Of a DNA stretch of 64,000 nucleotides, positions 53,180 to 59,722 are shown piece after piece. Numbering within the stretch: position 1 is the stretch's first letter; each line of letters starts with the position of its first letter. The stretch is from the IMG/VR virus record IMGVR_UViG_3300042868_008532, positions 1 through 64,000 of that record; one strand, 5' to 3'. The stretch is from a virus. The notes under the pieces are model-generated. The model saw only the letters and a program-made list of their open reading frames with translations, did not search any database and had not been told where the DNA came from. Position numbers and translations under genes: made by a program.

Positions 53180-53573
53180 GGGAGTGACACGGAATTGACT
53201 ATTCGTAATAGTTATTCGGGGCACGTAGTGAGATGTTCTCTATCACTTAAATCTATGGGTACAACAATTTAGACGGAAACGTTTTAAACAAAATGGCTCT
53301 AGTAGGTCTTGTACGTCAAGATGAGCTTGTGAACGTAGCGTAAGCAAACACACATTGGGGTCGGTGGACATATAACCCAGCAACAGGAGTCCTTAAAAAG
53401 GTGTGGTACCTATCCGAAAAGGTACAAGTGGAGGATTAGTTCTCAGTAAACCGAACCACTCTAAAAATAAGGGAATTGTGAAATTTTGGATTGTTAGCTT
53501 AAACAATATCCTAAACGTGTAGTCCTTAATAGGTAATACAAGTAACACCGGAGTTCGAGTCTCCGCACTTCCA
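53180..53573 (+). ncRNA. ssrA: Transfer-messenger RNA (tmRNA)
   Basis: GGGAGUG (53180-53186) pairs with CACUUCC (53566-53572) as a 7-bp acceptor stem; A73 follows and CCA is not encoded. The T-arm CGGAG-UUCGAGU-CUCCG (53549-53565) is canonical, and GGAAUUGAC near the 5' end is a tmRNA D-loop-type segment. Several compact stems between about 53390 and 53520 (for example GUACCU/AGGUAC at 53406-53425) fit pseudoknot domains. A resume region UUUAGAC then GGA (53275) resembles Bacteroidota tmRNA; the frame runs 22 codons to UAA at 53341-53343. The SmpB gene lies 0.9 kb away. Confidence 0.85.
53275..53343 (+). other. tmRNA tag reading frame
   Basis: From resume codon GGA the frame gives Gly followed by 21 residues ending QDELVNVA and UAA. 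Typical tags in this phylum start with Gly and end in ALAA. The resume point is inferred from the UAGAC-GGA context, so the exact N-terminus is less certain than the end. Confidence 0.6.
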
Positions 53574-53582
53574 CAAAAAGAA

Positions 53583-54428: not shown

Positions 54429-54460
54429 AAAAAAGAGACTATTTCAAGTCTCTTTTCATA
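54429..54460. terminator. Terminator at the smpB 3' end
   Basis: AAAAGAGACT / AGTCTCTTTT stem that overlaps the last codons of smpB. Confidence 0.65.
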
Positions 54461-54876
54461 TCTCTTTCAATGTCCCGAGATTTAATACTGTCTCGTTTAT
54501 CGTATGTCTTCTTTCCTTTGGCAAGAGCAATCTCCATCTTAACTAACCCGGTATCATTTATGAATACACGATAAGGAACGATGGTGGTTCCGTTGATTAG
54601 TTCGTTCTCCAATTTATTAAGTTCTTTTCGTTTAAGTAATAGTTTTCTATCCTTTACGGTCTCGTGAAAGGACCCGAACCCATAATCAGAGATATTCATT
54701 CCCTTTATAAACAACTCACCATTGTTGAAGTAACAAAACCCCTCAGATATGGAGACCTTTCCCTGACGGATGGACTTTACCTCTGAACCAACTAGTTTGA
54801 TTCCCACGATTAGTGTCTGTAGGAATGAATACTCAAACTTGGCTTTCTTATTGACTATGTTAATTGATTTTTTCAT
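54439..54876 (-). CDS. smpB: SmpB, tmRNA-binding protein
   Basis: 145 residues covering the whole family length. KKAKFEYSFLQT, GSEVKSIRQGK, the KDRKLLLKRKEL strand, the late VKMEIALAKGKKTYDKRDSI and a basic C-terminal tail (SRDIERDMKRD) match SmpB. It carries tmRNA to stalled ribosomes and mimics an anticodon in the decoding centre with that tail. A TATCTTTG box starts 4 nt before the ATG. It pairs with the tmRNA gene at 53180-53573. Confidence 0.9.
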   Translation of the reverse strand: MKKSINIVNKKAKFEYSFLQTLIVGIKLVGSEVKSIRQGKVSISEGFCYFNNGELFIKGMNISDYGFGSFHETVKDRKLLLKRKELNKLENELINGTTIVPYRVFINDTGLVKMEIALAKGKKTYDKRDSIKSRDIERDMKRDLK

Positions 54877-54888: not shown

Positions 54889-54932
54889 ATGATTTTTTTT
54901 CTAATAATTATGACTTTTTATACTTTTTGAGA

Positions 54933-54939
54933 TATTTAT
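54933..54939 (+). promoter_or_regulatory. TATTTAT box before RHH-HNH cassette
   Basis: TATTTATA, 14 nt before the ATG at 54954. Confidence 0.4.
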
Positions 54940-54953
54940 AATAAAGAGATATT

Positions 54954-55106
54954 ATGAACCCAAGAAAAAAAGAAGAAGATAAAAAAGTAAAATTTGGAAT
55001 CTGTGTTGACCCGGTAATATACCAAAAAATGGAAGATGAGATGATTAACAAATCTCGCCTGATTGAAACACTATTGAAAGAACATTATGGAAAAAAAAGT
55101 TTGTAG
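54954..55106 (+). CDS. Small ribbon-helix-helix-like protein
   Basis: 50 residues. VKFGICVDPVIYQKMEDEM then KSRLIETLLKEHYG is a one-strand, two-helix pattern of MetJ/Arc-type ribbon-helix-helix proteins. It ends inside the HNH gene, overlapping by 20 nt in the +1 frame, so both are co-translated. A near copy in layout occurs at 58544-58696. It could repress the endonuclease. Confidence 0.6.
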   Translation: MNPRKKEEDKKVKFGICVDPVIYQKMEDEMINKSRLIETLLKEHYGKKSL

Positions 55107-55707
55107 TAAGTGTAAAGAAGAAAAAGAGGTTTGCGAGTTTGGGAAACGAAAAGATTCCAAAGATGGTCTGCGAAGTGAATGTAAAAGTTGTGCTAAAGAA
55201 TGGAGATTAAAGAATCGAGAACATTTATTAAAATATAATAAAAATTGGAAAAATTCTAATTCAGAACACGTTTATCATTATCATAAAAAATATAAAGAAG
55301 AAAATGATGAAGAATTAAAGAAATATCAAAAAGAATGGTATCTACAAAATAAAAATATTCTTAATGAAAAAATAAAACTAAAAAAATTAACAAACCCAAT
55401 ATTTTTAGTTTCGTGTTCAGTTAGAAAAAGAATGTCCGAGTATATTAAAAAAAATAATATATTGAAAAAAAATAAAACTTTTAAAGTTGTTGGATTGAAC
55501 CCTATTGAATTATCTCATTACTTGGAAACTCAATTTACAGAAGGAATGTCTTGGAATAACTATGGAAAGTATGGGTGGCATATTGACCATATAATTCCGT
55601 TATCTTCAGCAAAAAATGAAAATGAACTTTATAAGTTATGTCATTATACTAATCTCCAACCACTATGGGCAGAAGACAATCTAAAAAAATCAAATAAACT
55701 ATTATAA
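55087..55707 (+). CDS. HNH homing endonuclease
   Basis: 206 residues. The N-terminus has a CxxC...CxxC zinc region (CSKCKEEK ... CKSCAKEW); the C-terminus has WHIDHIIPLSSAKNENEL and NLQPLWAEDNLKKSNK, the HNH signature. It belongs to a cassette with an RHH-like protein and flanks the RNA locus on its left side. Confidence 0.8.
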   Translation: MEKKVCSKCKEEKEVCEFGKRKDSKDGLRSECKSCAKEWRLKNREHLLKYNKNWKNSNSEHVYHYHKKYKEENDEELKKYQKEWYLQNKNILNEKIKLKKLTNPIFLVSCSVRKRMSEYIKKNNILKKNKTFKVVGLNPIELSHYLETQFTEGMSWNNYGKYGWHIDHIIPLSSAKNENELYKLCHYTNLQPLWAEDNLKKSNKLL

Positions 55708-55712
55708 ACAAA

Positions 55713-55745
55713 AAAAGGTGTCACAAATTAATGTAACACCTTTTT
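55713..55745. terminator. Bidirectional terminator between HNH gene and the large ncRNA
   Basis: AAAAAGGTGTCACA / TGTAACACCTTTTT stem with one mismatch and A/T runs on both sides. It would stop the HNH transcript and the minus-strand RNA. Confidence 0.75.
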
Positions 55746-56628
55746 GGCTTAATACGATGAGAATACTCGTCTTATTGAGAATCTTCGGAAGGATTATTGT
55801 TTCCCTTCTTTTCCACCATCTTTTGAATGGTAATCCTCATTGCCGATTGGTTAGACCAATCACTCCTTAAGATATCATTTACTCTCTCATTATTCAACTC
55901 TCTTTAACCTTGCGAGCTAACTCCGGATTCGACTCCGTAGAGGTTTTTGGCGAGAATACATTCAGACTTGCGGTCATCCTGTGCAACGAACAGCTCGTTA
56001 CTATGTAGGCAACTTGTCAATGATACCTGACAGACACTTTTGCTTTTTTCTGTTTAGTTTTTCACCATATTGAAAATAGTTATTGTGTTGTGGATGTGTC
56101 CAAGTAGAGGTCTGTCTTAGGCTTCATCATCTTTTGGACGAAGAAATACCAACCTACTCGGTAGAGCGTCCCCACTCTCATATTTTAAGAATTCTTCGAA
56201 TCAAAATCTTGGTAGATGTTTGATAAGGATAATGACAGCACCACCTGTTACTTATCTTGTCTTTCGACTTTAAGATTTCTCTCATATTGGAACCCGTAAT
56301 AATTAAGTTGGATAACCTAACTTCTTACTTGATTCCTATCACTTATTCCTATTGGAGTTCCCCCCTCAACCGAAAGACCCACATCTCCCGGTCACCTAAC
56401 CACTTTCTCTAAAGCGTTGCCCTCAATACTGAAGGTCAGATGGTATGTGACTTGTATACTCGAGTCCCATTTCTGAGACCGCAAACCTGTTAACACAACA
56501 GATTCACTTTAGCCCGGTTTCCCGGTTTATTTAAGGATGATATACCACCCATTATCGTTTTTTACTCCACCGAAGTGGGTAAAGGATAATCTAAAATTTC
56601 TAAGAACGTCTTGAGGTTTCCCTCATTT
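55714..56628 (-). ncRNA. Large structured non-coding RNA (about 0.9 kb)
   Basis: No plausible ORF in either strand over about 0.9 kb. On the minus strand it follows a TTG-N19-TACCTTTG promoter and ends in a terminator. Folding marks favour this strand: a CCAC-UUCG-GUGG hairpin (56567-56578) and a CCGG-GAAA-CCGG hairpin (56514-56525). Other stems include a 14-bp hairpin with one mismatch at 55748-55779, GATTGGT/ACCAATC at 55845-55861 and an 11-bp bulged stem at 56222-56255. A T-arm-like then D-arm-like stretch occurs near 55910-55945. Its size, phage setting and tRNA-like neighbours recall GOLLD and ROOL RNAs; identity is not established. Confidence 0.7.
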
Positions 56629-56634
56629 GTTTTA

Positions 56635-56664
56635 CAAAGGTAAGTGATTTTTTTCATTTGTCAA
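56635..56664 (-). promoter_or_regulatory. Bacteroidota-type promoter of the large ncRNA
   Basis: On the minus strand TTGAC (TTG at 56664-56662), 19-nt spacer, TACCTTTG (56642-56635). Close to consensus. Confidence 0.75.
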
Positions 56665-56698
56665 ACACTTTTGTAATTTTTTTTTATTTTTTTTTAAT

Positions 56699-57062
56699 CT
56701 GTGATAAGACCTTAAGATTTACTCATTCGTAGGTCACCCATTCTGTACTACCTAAAACTCGCCTTTAACATCCGTTCTACCCAAACCATCGTTTATTTCT
56801 TGTTAACCTCACGGTTATCTTTGAGTACCTCCTCAACTGTAATCTGATAGGGACTCCATATTGCTCGTCATTTCTGACTCCCTATGGGGTTCTGCTGTAA
56901 TAGGTCTATCTGCTATCTTATCACAGAATAAAATTTGTAAACCCTTGAGAAGGAATCTGTGGGCGTGTATAGGATTACTTGTCTACCTTCTATCCATCCG
57001 GGTCTCTCACCCGACGAAACTTTACTACAAATAAATTCGTAGTTCCATCCCCCACCAAATTA
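56699..57062 (-). ncRNA. Second structured RNA region
   Basis: No ORF. An 11-bp perfect helix CTGTGATAAGA (56699-56709) with TCTTATCACAG (56916-56926) closes a 228-nt domain. Inside are GTCA-GAAA-TGAC (56867-56878) and AACC-GTGA-GGTT (56805-56816), GNRA-type on the minus strand only. Upstream (toward 57062) a CTACGAA/TTTGTAG hairpin (57025-57042) and a CGGGT/ACCCG hairpin occur. It probably belongs to the transcript that starts near 57280 and carries two tRNA-like elements. Confidence 0.6.
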
Positions 57063-57075
57063 TGGTTTACTTTTG

Positions 57076-57165
57076 TGGTATCAGATGGGCTCGAACCACC
57101 GGCACAGAGTCTTTCGTTACTCCTGCTCTACCAAAGGAGATAAATCTCCACTGAGCTATAATACC
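57076..57165 (-). tRNA. tRNA-like element with extra D-loop hairpin
   Basis: Acceptor GGTATTA/TGATACC with A73, D-stem GCTC/GAGC and T-arm GGTGG-TTCGAGC-CCATC are canonical. The D-loop carries an inserted GGAGA-TTTA-TCTCC hairpin between AGT and TTTGGTA. The anticodon position forms GGAGT-AA-C-GAAA-G-ACTCT, a GNRA-capped stem without U33, so no anticodon can be named. CCA not encoded. Confidence 0.55.
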
Positions 57166-57175
57166 ATATATTTTA

Positions 57176-57249
57176 GTGGACGTATGCTCTACCATCTGAG
57201 CTACGGGGTTAAGACCGGAGGGATTTGAATCCTCGACACAACGTCCACC
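57176..57249 (-). other. tRNA-like element with permuted arm order
   Basis: On the minus strand the T-arm (GAGGA-TTCAAAT-CCCTC) comes first, then a CGG/CCG hairpin in the acceptor position, then the D-arm (TAGCTCAGATGGTAGAGC). The ends pair as GTGGACGT with ACGTCCAC, which corresponds to an extended anticodon stem. Spacing follows tRNA numbering (5-nt variable region, 14 nt for the two acceptor strands). The acceptor hairpin has only 3 bp, so aminoacylation as a normal tRNA is unlikely. Confidence 0.5.
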
Positions 57250-57286
57250 TATTTTTTCAATAATTTTAAGAACTTTATTTCTTCTA

Positions 57287-57317
57287 CAAAGATAATACTT
57301 TTATTTTAATATATCAA
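57287..57317 (-). promoter_or_regulatory. Bacteroidota-type promoter of the permuted tRNA-like transcript
   Basis: On the minus strand TTG (57317-57315), 20-nt spacer, TATCTTTG (57294-57287). Predicted start near 57280. Confidence 0.65.
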
Positions 57318-57318
57318 A

Positions 57319-57477
57319 TTATTTTAAAAATAATTCTAACAATTTTGTAATACCTAAACCAAAACACATTCCGGCAACAAAATAACTGAATGCGGGATTT
57401 CTACCTTTTTCTTTTTGAATTTTTGCACCGTATAGATTTATAACCGTCAATCCGAATTGTATTAATACTATTTCCAT
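57319..57477 (-). CDS. Small membrane protein
   Basis: 52 residues: MEIVLIQFGLTVINLYGAKI, a basic loop (QKEKGRN), then a second hydrophobic helix FVAGMCFGLGITKLLELFL. Two-helix membrane protein with its own host-type promoter. Its last codons overlap the -33 region of the next promoter. Confidence 0.6.
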   Translation of the reverse strand: MEIVLIQFGLTVINLYGAKIQKEKGRNPAFSYFVAGMCFGLGITKLLELFLK

Positions 57478-57503
57478 AATTTGTTTCTTTTTTAATTAGA
57501 GTA

Positions 57504-57533
57504 CAAAGATAATACTATTTTTTAATCTACCAA
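57504..57533 (-). promoter_or_regulatory. Bacteroidota-type promoter
   Basis: On the minus strand TTG (57533-57531), 19-nt spacer, TATCTTTG (57511-57504), upstream of the small membrane protein; overlaps the 3' end of the 57522-57674 gene. Confidence 0.65.
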
Positions 57534-57674
57534 ATCTTTTTTTGAATTTTCATCAATTTTTTTTAATTCACTAATAAGTTGGTTACCGTACCACTCTAAC
57601 CATTCAATATGGGTAAACTTTGAATCCGGATTATCCGACATAAAGTTTTTGTATTGTGTTTCTAATGTTGCCAT
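57522..57674 (-). CDS. Small hypothetical protein
   Basis: 50 residues: MATLETQYKNFMSDNPDSKF ... WLEWYGNQLISELKKID. Looks like a short helical phage protein. It follows the last tRNA-like element by 15 nt and probably shares its transcript. Confidence 0.55.
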   Translation of the reverse strand: MATLETQYKNFMSDNPDSKFTHIEWLEWYGNQLISELKKIDENSKKDLVD

Positions 57675-57689
57675 ATAATTTAATTTTAG

Positions 57690-57766
57690 TAGTCAGAACA
57701 GGATTCGAACCTGTGTGTCCACATAAGGGGTTTCCTTACCGTGCATCTCCAATGTGCTACCTGACT
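57690..57766 (-). tRNA. tRNA-like element
   Basis: Acceptor AGTCAGG/TCTGACT with A73, T-arm ACAGG-TTCGAAT-CCTGT, D-loop with TTGGA but a 3-bp D-stem. The anticodon position GTAAG-GAAACCC-CTTAT lacks U33, so no decoding identity is assigned. A GTGGACAC variable hairpin follows. Its 3' half is almost identical to the two tRNA-like elements upstream. Confidence 0.5.
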
Positions 57767-58008
57767 AAATTGTGAATCAAAAAATTTCAGCCTTAGCTCA
57801 AAAATATCATCACACGATAAGACTTCTTTGTATGGTTCAGGTATCTAAACAACCTAGGTCATTCTGAATCTTCATATCATTAAAGCAATACCTTTTTTAA
57901 GGTTCAAATCCGAACTGTAACTCATTTATTCCTTAACTTACCTAAATAAGTCTCTATGTTTATTCATAGCCCCTGTAGATACTACAGGTAGTTGACATCG
58001 TCGATTTG
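57767..58008 (-). ncRNA. Structured spacer between tRNA-like elements
   Basis: No ORF over 242 nt. A perfect CCTGTAG-CTACAGG hairpin (57972-57988), a CTATG/CATAG hairpin and a GTTC/GAAC hairpin are visible. Likely part of the same minus-strand precursor that starts near 58432. Confidence 0.4.
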
Positions 58009-58153
58009 TAGTCAGGACAGGATTCGAACCTGTAAGGTATAACCACTAAAATCGTGGAGATGGAGGTCAATTCCTCTTTTACAATACCAACCTGTGAGCG
58101 TCTACCATCAGGAATTAGCTTTATCAGTGCTACCCTTGTTCCGCCACCTGACT
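58009..58153 (-). tRNA. Enlarged tRNA-like element with D-loop insertion and branched variable region
   Basis: 145 nt. Acceptor AGTCAGG/CCTGACT with A73 and T-arm ACAGG-TTCGAAT-CCTGT are perfect. The D-arm is tRNA-Leu-like (TGGCGGAAC ... TGGTAGACGC) but has about 30 nt inserted, with a TAGC/GCTA hairpin. Beyond it, GGTAT/ATACC closes a three-way junction with hairpins GAGG/CCTC and CCAC/GTGG. A possible loop GTTGGTA with TGG in the anticodon position has a poor stem, so identity is uncertain. Confidence 0.5.
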
Positions 58154-58158
58154 ATTTA

Positions 58159-58321
58159 AAAACTAATGGTGTGTTGTTACACCAAGATACGAGGTTCGTT
58201 ACCACCTACGTGTGACACCCAATAACGATTTCCCTGGATGTTGACTTTTTGTCCGTACACTCCCACAAGGGGACAACTCCTTAGAAGATGGATACTATCA
58301 ATCCCACTTCCCATTAGTTTT
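58159..58321 (-). ncRNA. Structured domain closed by 11-bp helix
   Basis: AAAACTAATGG (58159-58169) pairs perfectly with CCATTAGTTTT (58311-58321), enclosing about 140 nt with a TTGTCC/GGACAA stem and a GGTGT/ACACC hairpin. It fills exactly the space between two tRNA-like elements. No ORF. Confidence 0.55.
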
Positions 58322-58322
58322 G

Positions 58323-58424
58323 TAGTCAGGACAGGATTCGAACCTGTTCCGTCTTTGCCATAAAGAGTCGGCCTTACCGTTACTCAACCTTGGGGAGGTG
58401 ATACCAACCAATGGTCTCCTAACT
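58323..58424 (-). tRNA. tRNA-like element, class II layout
   Basis: 102 nt. Acceptor AGTTAGG/CCTGACT with A73, T-arm ACAGG-TTCGAAT-CCTGT, variable arm TCTTT-ATGGC-AAAGA. The anticodon position GAGT-AA-CGG-TAAGG-CCG-ACTC has two bulged A; if the last pair opens, the loop GTAAGGC would carry U33 and AAG (Leu), but the stem is irregular. D-arm is unusual. First element after the promoter at 58439-58468. Confidence 0.5.
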
Positions 58425-58438
58425 ATTTTATTATGGTA

Positions 58439-58468
58439 CAAAGATAATACTTTATTTTAATTTACCAA
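58439..58468 (-). promoter_or_regulatory. Bacteroidota-type promoter of the tRNA-like transcript
   Basis: On the minus strand TTG (58468-58466), 19-nt spacer, TATCTTTG (58446-58439). Predicted start about 58432, 8 nt before the first tRNA-like element. Confidence 0.7.
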
Positions 58469-58519
58469 ATTTATTTTATAAAAATCTGATAAAAATCCGT
58501 CTTTTAATATTTTTCCGGA

Positions 58520-58535
58520 TATTTATATATAAATA
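58520..58535 (+). promoter_or_regulatory. TATTTATA / TATAAATA late-type boxes
   Basis: TATTTATATATAAATA in front of the second RHH-HNH cassette, with the ATG at 58544. Confidence 0.45.
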
Positions 58536-58543
58536 ACATTATA

Positions 58544-58696
58544 ATGGGTAGACCTAAATTAAAAGAAGACGATAAAAAAGGTAAATTAGGTATAACAATA
58601 TCTAAAGAACTTATCAATAAAATAAACAAAATTACAAATAATAAATCATTATTTATTGAAGAATTAATTATTAAATATTTCAAGAATGGAGAATAA
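58544..58696 (+). CDS. Small ribbon-helix-helix-like protein
   Basis: 50 residues, the same length as the copy at 54954. MGRPKLKEDDKKGKLGITI then SKELINKINKI and KSLFIEELIIKYF fit a ribbon-helix-helix fold. It overlaps the HNH gene by 11 nt in the +1 frame. Confidence 0.6.
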   Translation: MGRPKLKEDDKKGKLGITISKELINKINKITNNKSLFIEELIIKYFKNGE

Positions 58697-59306
58697 AATA
58701 TGTTCTAAATGTAAAGTTGAAAAACTATTATGTGATTTTCATAATAATAAAAAAGAGAAGAGTGGTAAAAACTGTCAATGTAAAAGTTGTGTAAAACTTT
58801 GTTATAAATATATTAAAAAAATACCCATTATAAATTTAGAAGAATCTATTAAAAAAGAAAATTTAAGAAAATTAAAAAAAAGTGTGTATAATAAAAAGTA
58901 TCGTGAAGAAAATCGTGAAATATTAAAGAAGAAAAAAAATATTTATAAACAAATTAGGATAAATGAAAATCCTTTAGTTAAACTACGTTTTAGGATTTCC
59001 AATAACATAACTGTTTCGTTAAAACGAAATGGTGGTAAAAAATTAAGTAAAACTACTAATATTTTAGGGTGTTCTTTTGATGATTTTAAGAAACATATTG
59101 AATTATTATGGGAATCTTGGATGAGTTGGGAAAATTATGGTAACCCAAAAGATGGTATTTATCAACCAAATAAAACTTGGGATTTAGACCATATAACTCC
59201 ATCCTCAAAGGCAACATCTGAAGAAGAAATACTTAAATTAAATCATTATAGTAACTTTCAACCATTATGTTCTTATAATAACAGATTCATAAAAAAAGGT
59301 GACTAA
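58686..59306 (+). CDS. HNH homing endonuclease
   Basis: 206 residues, exactly the length of the protein at 55087-55707. CSKCKVEK and CKSCVKLC at the N-terminus, WDLDHITPSSKATSEEE and NFQPLCSYNNRFIKKGD at the C-terminus form zinc and HNH motifs; only moderately similar to the other copy, so the two cassettes are old paralogues or separate arrivals of one family. Flanks the RNA locus on the right. Confidence 0.8.
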   Translation: MENKICSKCKVEKLLCDFHNNKKEKSGKNCQCKSCVKLCYKYIKKIPIINLEESIKKENLRKLKKSVYNKKYREENREILKKKKNIYKQIRINENPLVKLRFRISNNITVSLKRNGGKKLSKTTNILGCSFDDFKKHIELLWESWMSWENYGNPKDGIYQPNKTWDLDHITPSSKATSEEEILKLNHYSNFQPLCSYNNRFIKKGD

Positions 59307-59318: not shown

Positions 59319-59467
59319 TATAATTTTAACAAAAAACTATGTCAATCCACCAAAACTGTTAAAATCTCCTACTTACCTATATGGGCTCGGCCATCCCGTT
59401 GTCATATTGATTTACCTGAAACTTCTTTGGGTTGTTGATTGACCACTCCCACTTACTCAAGTAGTTT

Positions 59468-59722
59468 TTACATACTCATCATCCAACCCATTCGGTTTTG
59501 TTCTTGATACTGAGAATAAGTACATTTTCTCATTGTCTTATAATCCGGTCTCAACTTAACGTGAGTTGGGTATTTTTTTTCGTGTTCTTTGTGTTCTCTC
59601 ACCACTTTAGCGTAAGCCTCTCTTTTACTTGGTGCCCACACGTCATTAAATCCTCCACCTATCCAATTGAATAAATATAAATACTCCCCGTTAACACTTC
59701 TATATAATTTCTCTTTAGTCAT
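59468..59722 (-). CDS. Hypothetical protein
   Basis: 84 residues with WIGGGFNDVWAPSKREAYAK and a basic C-terminal half. No family recognised. The 160 nt between its stop and the HNH terminator carry no gene I can support, only a few G/C-rich short stems. Confidence 0.55.
   Translation of the reverse strand: MTKEKLYRSVNGEYLYLFNWIGGGFNDVWAPSKREAYAKVVREHKEHEKKYPTHVKLRPDYKTMRKCTYSQYQEQNRMGWMMSM

Follow-up and report, generated by a model that had tools for sequence, protein, structure and literature searches.

What are two small two-gene cassettes doing on either side of a non-coding RNA locus in a large phage? This question is raised by a 64,000-nucleotide (nt) stretch of viral DNA, referred to here as the window, which forms part of the 77,856-base IMG/VR record IMGVR_UViG_3300042868_008532 and is a jumbo-phage fragment. 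In this window, a GOLLD RNA (match to RF02032, 306 bits, 55754-56161, minus strand) and a minus-strand tRNA cluster are enclosed by two co-directional plus-strand cassettes (54954-55707 and 58544-59306), with smpB and a transfer-messenger RNA (tmRNA) to the left of the region. Each cassette consists of a ribbon-helix-helix (RHH)-like gene of 50 codons overlapped in the +1 frame by a 206-codon HNH endonuclease gene, and this bracketing arrangement, already described in a first-pass annotation of the window, was confirmed. The equal layout claimed there holds for the gene lengths and the reading frame but goes no further: the overlap is 20 nt in cassette 1 and 11 nt in cassette 2, and the two cassettes are only 35% identical in HNH protein and 37% in RHH protein. 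Because members of the family range from about 180 to 294 amino acids, the equal lengths of the two window cassettes are a coincidence. We propose that the cassettes are probably free-standing homing endonuclease elements, in which the RHH protein would act as an autoregulator at a box upstream of the promoter; comparison with relatives shows that cassettes 1 and 2 were inserted separately and belong to a widespread type of two-gene cassette.

Pairing and exchange of the RHH and nuclease genes

A search of viral contigs with the RHH sequence alone returned 46 loci, and in all 46 an HNH gene starts immediately downstream. The HNH gene lies in the +1 frame in 45 of 45 distinct complete cassettes, and the overlap is exactly 20 nt in 34 of them. 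A 318-kilobase (kb) relative with identical cassette proteins and an identical GOLLD region carries four RHH genes and four HNH genes of this type, all of them paired, the other two pairs being located at about 187 and 262 kb. The pairing is thus far beyond chance. No RHH match was found among 50,697 phage records with one RHH query, nor in GTDB genomes, both searches covering close relatives only.

The range of partners was broader in a second RHH subfamily, in which HNH genes follow in 70 of 80 loci. The same overlapping position is taken by NUMOD3/TnsA-like nucleases in three loci and by an intein-bearing methylase in two, while a third methylase starts just downstream; the remainder precede a 5'-3' exonuclease gene (two loci) or a 109-residue open reading frame (one), or are cut by a contig end (one). 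In seven further contigs an RHH gene overlaps a LAGLIDADG protein gene by 17 nt. We therefore rejected the idea that the RHH gene is obligate to HNH genes alone, as LAGLIDADG and NUMOD3/PD-(D/E)XK nucleases also follow it, and likewise the converse idea that it accompanies every HNH gene, as more distant HNH relatives lack it. Moreover, the two genes can be uncoupled. L011 and L016 share 98% nucleotide identity in the RHH gene and have the first HNH codons in common, after which the HNH bodies are 48-78% identical; L012 and L009 display the reverse, with a common HNH gene and different RHH genes and boxes. These comparisons demonstrate that RHH genes have been exchanged among nuclease types.

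Several unusual arrangements were also seen. In L314, L312 and L331 the gene that follows the RHH gene encodes a C5 DNA methylase with a LAGLIDADG intein, and the methylase frame of L312 and L314 begins METKI, like many HNH genes, as if the HNH gene had been deleted. In L006 (5598-5990) the RHH frame is extended by about 80 amino acids between RHH and HNH, and a huge phage has an unrelated-looking RHH-like open reading frame of 49 codons in the equivalent place.

Profile matches and fold place the larger protein among the HNH (beta-beta-alpha-metal) nucleases. Its AlphaFold model (predicted local distance difference test score, pLDDT, 90) displays a Cys4 zinc ribbon, a long helical linker and a C-terminal HNH domain, and structure comparison gave Z 5.0 to the Hpy99I zinc domain and Z 2-3 to Cas9-type HNH domains. 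With E up to 0.1 as the limit, the Pfam HNH profile matched 30 of 42 members; most of these matches were weak, and that of cassette 1 fell short of the gathering score. Across the family, the DH, N and QPL columns are near invariant. PHROGs groups the nuclease with 'endonuclease VII' (PHROG 1035). The small partner is a putative RHH protein, the RHH-like domain covering nearly the whole of its 50-51 residues; the evidence for this is moderate, several individually weak indications agreeing with one another. RHH_3 matched 12 of 33 members, and the best hit was to CcdA (E 4e-5), all of these being weak profile hits. The model contains an extended stretch followed by helices at residues 20-28 and 33-45, and its only PDB candidate was NikR, with a weak Z of 3.8; a PDB sequence search yielded no credible match, and Foldseek with the 50-residue model none at E 10 or below. 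In close pairs both genes have a ratio of nonsynonymous to synonymous substitution rates (dN/dS) of about 0.1-0.25 and are hence under purifying selection.

Insertion sites and the promoter box

We compared the cassette sites with the same positions in related genomes. Cassette 1 has the GOLLD terminator on one side and the smpB promoter on the other. This cassette is missing from 18 contigs, in which only about 64-100 nt lie between GOLLD and smpB, whereas the site is occupied in six distinct genomes by cassettes whose HNH proteins belong to several lineages; nine further contigs have other sequence between GOLLD and smpB, with no RHH or HNH gene there. The cassette 2 site was empty in the relatives examined, for example L051, L056 and L057. 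A third site, flanked by a YibB-like and a 125-codon gene, is occupied in 12 contigs and empty in 61, and here the cassette begins past the stop codon of its neighbour and leaves the next promoter intact. The GOLLD-smpB and YibB-like sites thus display both the presence/absence polymorphism and the exact intergenic junctions expected of free-standing elements. Further sites adjoin a DNA polymerase B gene and genes with DUF3310 or DUF192. Still others lie beside genes that were labelled from their sequences, without a profile hit, as RecA-like, as NUDIX-like and as a virion gene pair.

The cassettes also carry a common upstream region. The motif TATTTAT, found before many genes of this phage and nearly every cassette, is likely a phage promoter motif; in the window it lies 10-30 nt before the start codons of many large genes, e.g. 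at 2360, 25443, 34680, 37287 and 45800. In the cassettes, a box ending in ACTTT is located 14-15 nt upstream of TATTTAT and often takes the form of a dyad, AAAGT-N3-ACTTT, with variable spacer. The box motif was derived from the same sequences as were used in the first motif-score test, and we place weight on held-out cassettes found later: ACTTT occurs at this spacing in 10 of 10 held-out cassettes and in 52 of 57 distinct held-out upstream regions. By comparison, the window has 75 TATTTAT motifs, and 3 of them are preceded by ACTTT in this way, the motif of cassette 1 included. We found no further copies of the cassette 1 box, TAATTatgACTTT, in the window, and the dyad with up to one mismatch occurs there at chance level only. 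Divergence of the box follows divergence of the RHH protein (r 0.76; 0.73 given HNH and 0.63 given site), whereas given RHH its correlation with HNH is -0.04 and site likewise adds nothing. Examples of the box are AAAGTgaaACTTT, AAGTATGACTTTTCATACTT and TAATTATGACTTT.

These observations bear on the proposal of the first-pass annotation that the endonuclease is regulated by its small partner. We consider that it probably is, because the RHH gene travels with a cassette-specific box and is common to unrelated nuclease families; this support is comparative.

Alternative explanations for the cassettes

The layout, a small upstream RHH gene that overlaps its neighbour, is also that of type II toxin-antitoxin operons; some RHH members match CcdA, and the published partners of comparable nucleases were called CcdA/HicB-like antitoxins in the passage that describes them (PMC12619734). 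The RHH protein might accordingly neutralise a harmful HNH nuclease by binding to it, and repress the operon as well. However, the RHH domain leaves no room for the toxin-binding tail of a type II antitoxin, and one RHH family accompanies three unrelated nuclease types (HNH, LAGLIDADG and NUMOD3/PD-(D/E)XK), with RHHs and HNH bodies exchanged, which is not the specific partnership of a toxin and its antitoxin. Specific protein neutralisation is therefore unlikely. The near-constant pairing could instead mean that the RHH protein is no regulator but serves to target DNA, as a subunit guiding the nuclease to the place of homing, and nucleases and DNA-binding modules are often combined in homing enzymes. 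This we find improbable too: at one site, near-identical RHHs accompany HNH bodies that differ greatly, RHHs are common to several sites, and once RHH is accounted for, variation in the box follows RHH and not site.

A different possibility, also suggested by the first-pass annotation, is that the two cassettes jointly mobilised or fixed the GOLLD-tRNA region as a composite element. The cassettes do flank the block, and the T-even homing endonuclease SegB, which is associated with tRNA genes, can amplify tRNA segments (PMC13096335). A composite element would have similar flanking copies and its block would be missing without them, but here the flanking cassettes belong to different lineages, no contig outside the near-identical group has both, and on the strength of the empty sites we rejected mobilisation of the RNA block by the pair. 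Since relatives have the GOLLD-tRNA block without the cassettes, the block was neither moved nor fixed by them; this reading is already largely refuted, and we give it very little credence. The first-pass annotation had named RNA loci without cassettes, and cassettes placed elsewhere at random, as evidence against its suggestion. Both cassette-free RNA loci and cassettes elsewhere were found, but the placement elsewhere is at specific and recurrent sites and not random.

We thus favor free-standing homing elements. Each cassette of about 0.75-0.8 kb would comprise the promoter box, the RHH autoregulator gene and the overlapping HNH endonuclease gene. During co-infection, the nuclease would cleave the DNA of relatives that lack the cassette, close to the insertion site, and repair of the break would copy the cassette into them. 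An RHH dimer would bind the ACTTT box just upstream of the TATTTAT promoter and thereby limit or time nuclease expression. Cassettes 1 and 2 came into the GOLLD-tRNA region independently of each other, each in an intergenic gap, and do not make up a composite element.

Several points weigh against this account. Cleavage, homing, RHH binding and repression are all inferred from comparison of sequences, and the RHH assignment comes from weak profile hits and a model of moderate confidence (pLDDT 68). The box is tightly linked to the RHH gene, and shared ancestry alone could yield the correlation between them. The box might also be a common promoter element that some phage or host factor recognises. 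In addition, many members, cassette 1 among them, conserve the dyad poorly in its left half.

A more speculative extension treats the RHH gene plus box as a regulatory module independent of nuclease type, so that at co-infection an RHH already present could shut down newly arriving cassettes of its own type. This is conceivable because many cassettes have common box and RHH types, although we think it rather doubtful; if true, it would amount to repressor-type immunity between selfish homing elements.

Relation to known systems and features of the locus

The pairing of RHH and nuclease genes has already been published. In one paragraph of a 2025 paper on moraphages, CcdA/HicB-like antitoxin genes were reported to accompany PacI-like putative homing endonucleases, and regulation was suggested (PMC12619734). 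These pairs, as far as their description allows a comparison, resemble the cassettes: a putative homing nuclease is joined by a small RHH-type partner, the pairs occur in several copies, and the phages are large, with predicted Bacteroidota hosts. That paragraph includes no empty sites, promoter box or exchange between RHH and HNH genes, and likewise no pairing with LAGLIDADG or NUMOD3/PD-(D/E)XK nucleases and no GOLLD-adjacent sites (PMC12619734); relative to it, the empty sites, the box, the swapping of partners and the range of nucleases appear to be additions.

It has been previously reported that the Seg and Mob proteins of T4-like phages are free-standing homing endonucleases and that segB lies in a tRNA cluster (PMC2988022). 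Like the cassettes, they are intergenic, splicing-independent nuclease genes, and the location of segB in a tRNA cluster is a further likeness. Unlike the cassettes, which have an RHH gene and their own promoter box, seg and mob are single genes, several of them without their own promoter (PMC2988022). In T4, expression of I-TevI is kept down by an operator situated at a late promoter (PMC2988022); the box described here, a candidate operator that might act likewise, lies at a fixed distance from the cassette promoter. I-TevI represses itself through its own DNA-binding domain (PMC2988022), whereas here repression would fall to a separate, exchangeable RHH protein. With PHROG 1035 'endonuclease VII' and Hpy99I-type beta-beta-alpha-Me nucleases, the cassette nucleases share a Cys4 zinc ribbon and a C-terminal HNH domain. 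Cultured-phage relatives are less than 60% identical, and one annotated example (elemo phage) lacks an upstream RHH gene.

Homing endonucleases need restraint to avoid harm to the host genome, and the known phage solution is the self-repressing I-TevI. If our account is true, a separate small regulator and promoter box that move among HNH, LAGLIDADG and PD-(D/E)XK nucleases would be a second, modular solution, for which the box offers a concrete and testable DNA motif. The locus also carries a warning, as cassettes that adjoin GOLLD-tRNA loci are separate passengers and not parts of the RNA system.

Features of the two cassettes and the region between them (window coordinates)
Feature	Position	Strand	Remarks
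Cassette 1 box TAATTatgACTTT	54905..54917	+	8/10 vs AAAGT-N3-ACTTT; candidate RHH operator; 15 nt before TATTTAT, the spacing of nearly all other cassettes
Cassette 1 promoter motif GATATTTAT	54931..54939	+	phage promoter-type TATTTAT; same motif before many window phage genes
Cassette 1 RHH-like gene, 50 aa	54954..55106	+	RHH_3 E 0.009
Cassette 1 HNH endonuclease, 206 aa	55087..55707	+	Cys4 zinc ribbon, helical linker, C-terminal HNH
Cassette 2 box AAAATccgTCTTT	58492..58504	+	8/10; candidate RHH operator; 15 nt before TATTTAT
Cassette 2 promoter motif GATATTTAT	58518..58526	+	
Cassette 2 RHH-like gene, 50 aa	58544..58696	+	
Cassette 2 HNH endonuclease, 206 aa	58686..59306	+	
Hairpin terminator, common to GOLLD 3' end and cassette 1	55714..55744	.	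kept in empty-site relatives
GOLLD RNA between cassettes	55740..56669	-	conserved 3' part 55754-56161
tRNA and tRNA-like gene cluster between cassettes	57070..58430	-	
smpB, neighbour across cassette 1 insertion site	54439..54876	-	SmpB E 3e-48

The hairpin terminator is assigned to the site and not to the cassette because empty-site relatives have it. The phage encodes a tmRNA (53180-53576, plus strand) together with its own smpB, and both are kept in relatives. Within the tRNA cluster, a minus-strand element at 57166-57263 has its T-arm half before its D-arm half and resembles a circularly permuted tRNA; its closing stem of 9 base pairs covaries in L065, and when the element (57160-57275) was rotated, ARAGORN accepted no rotation. 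A conserved non-coding stretch of about 100 nt without an Rfam match (59367-59470, minus strand) adjoins the cluster in most relatives compared. Three further minus-strand tRNA-like genes (57075-57165, 58005-58157 and 58323-58425) appear to carry insertions in the D-loop or the region of the anticodon; ARAGORN missed the latter two and called the first a tRNA-Thr.

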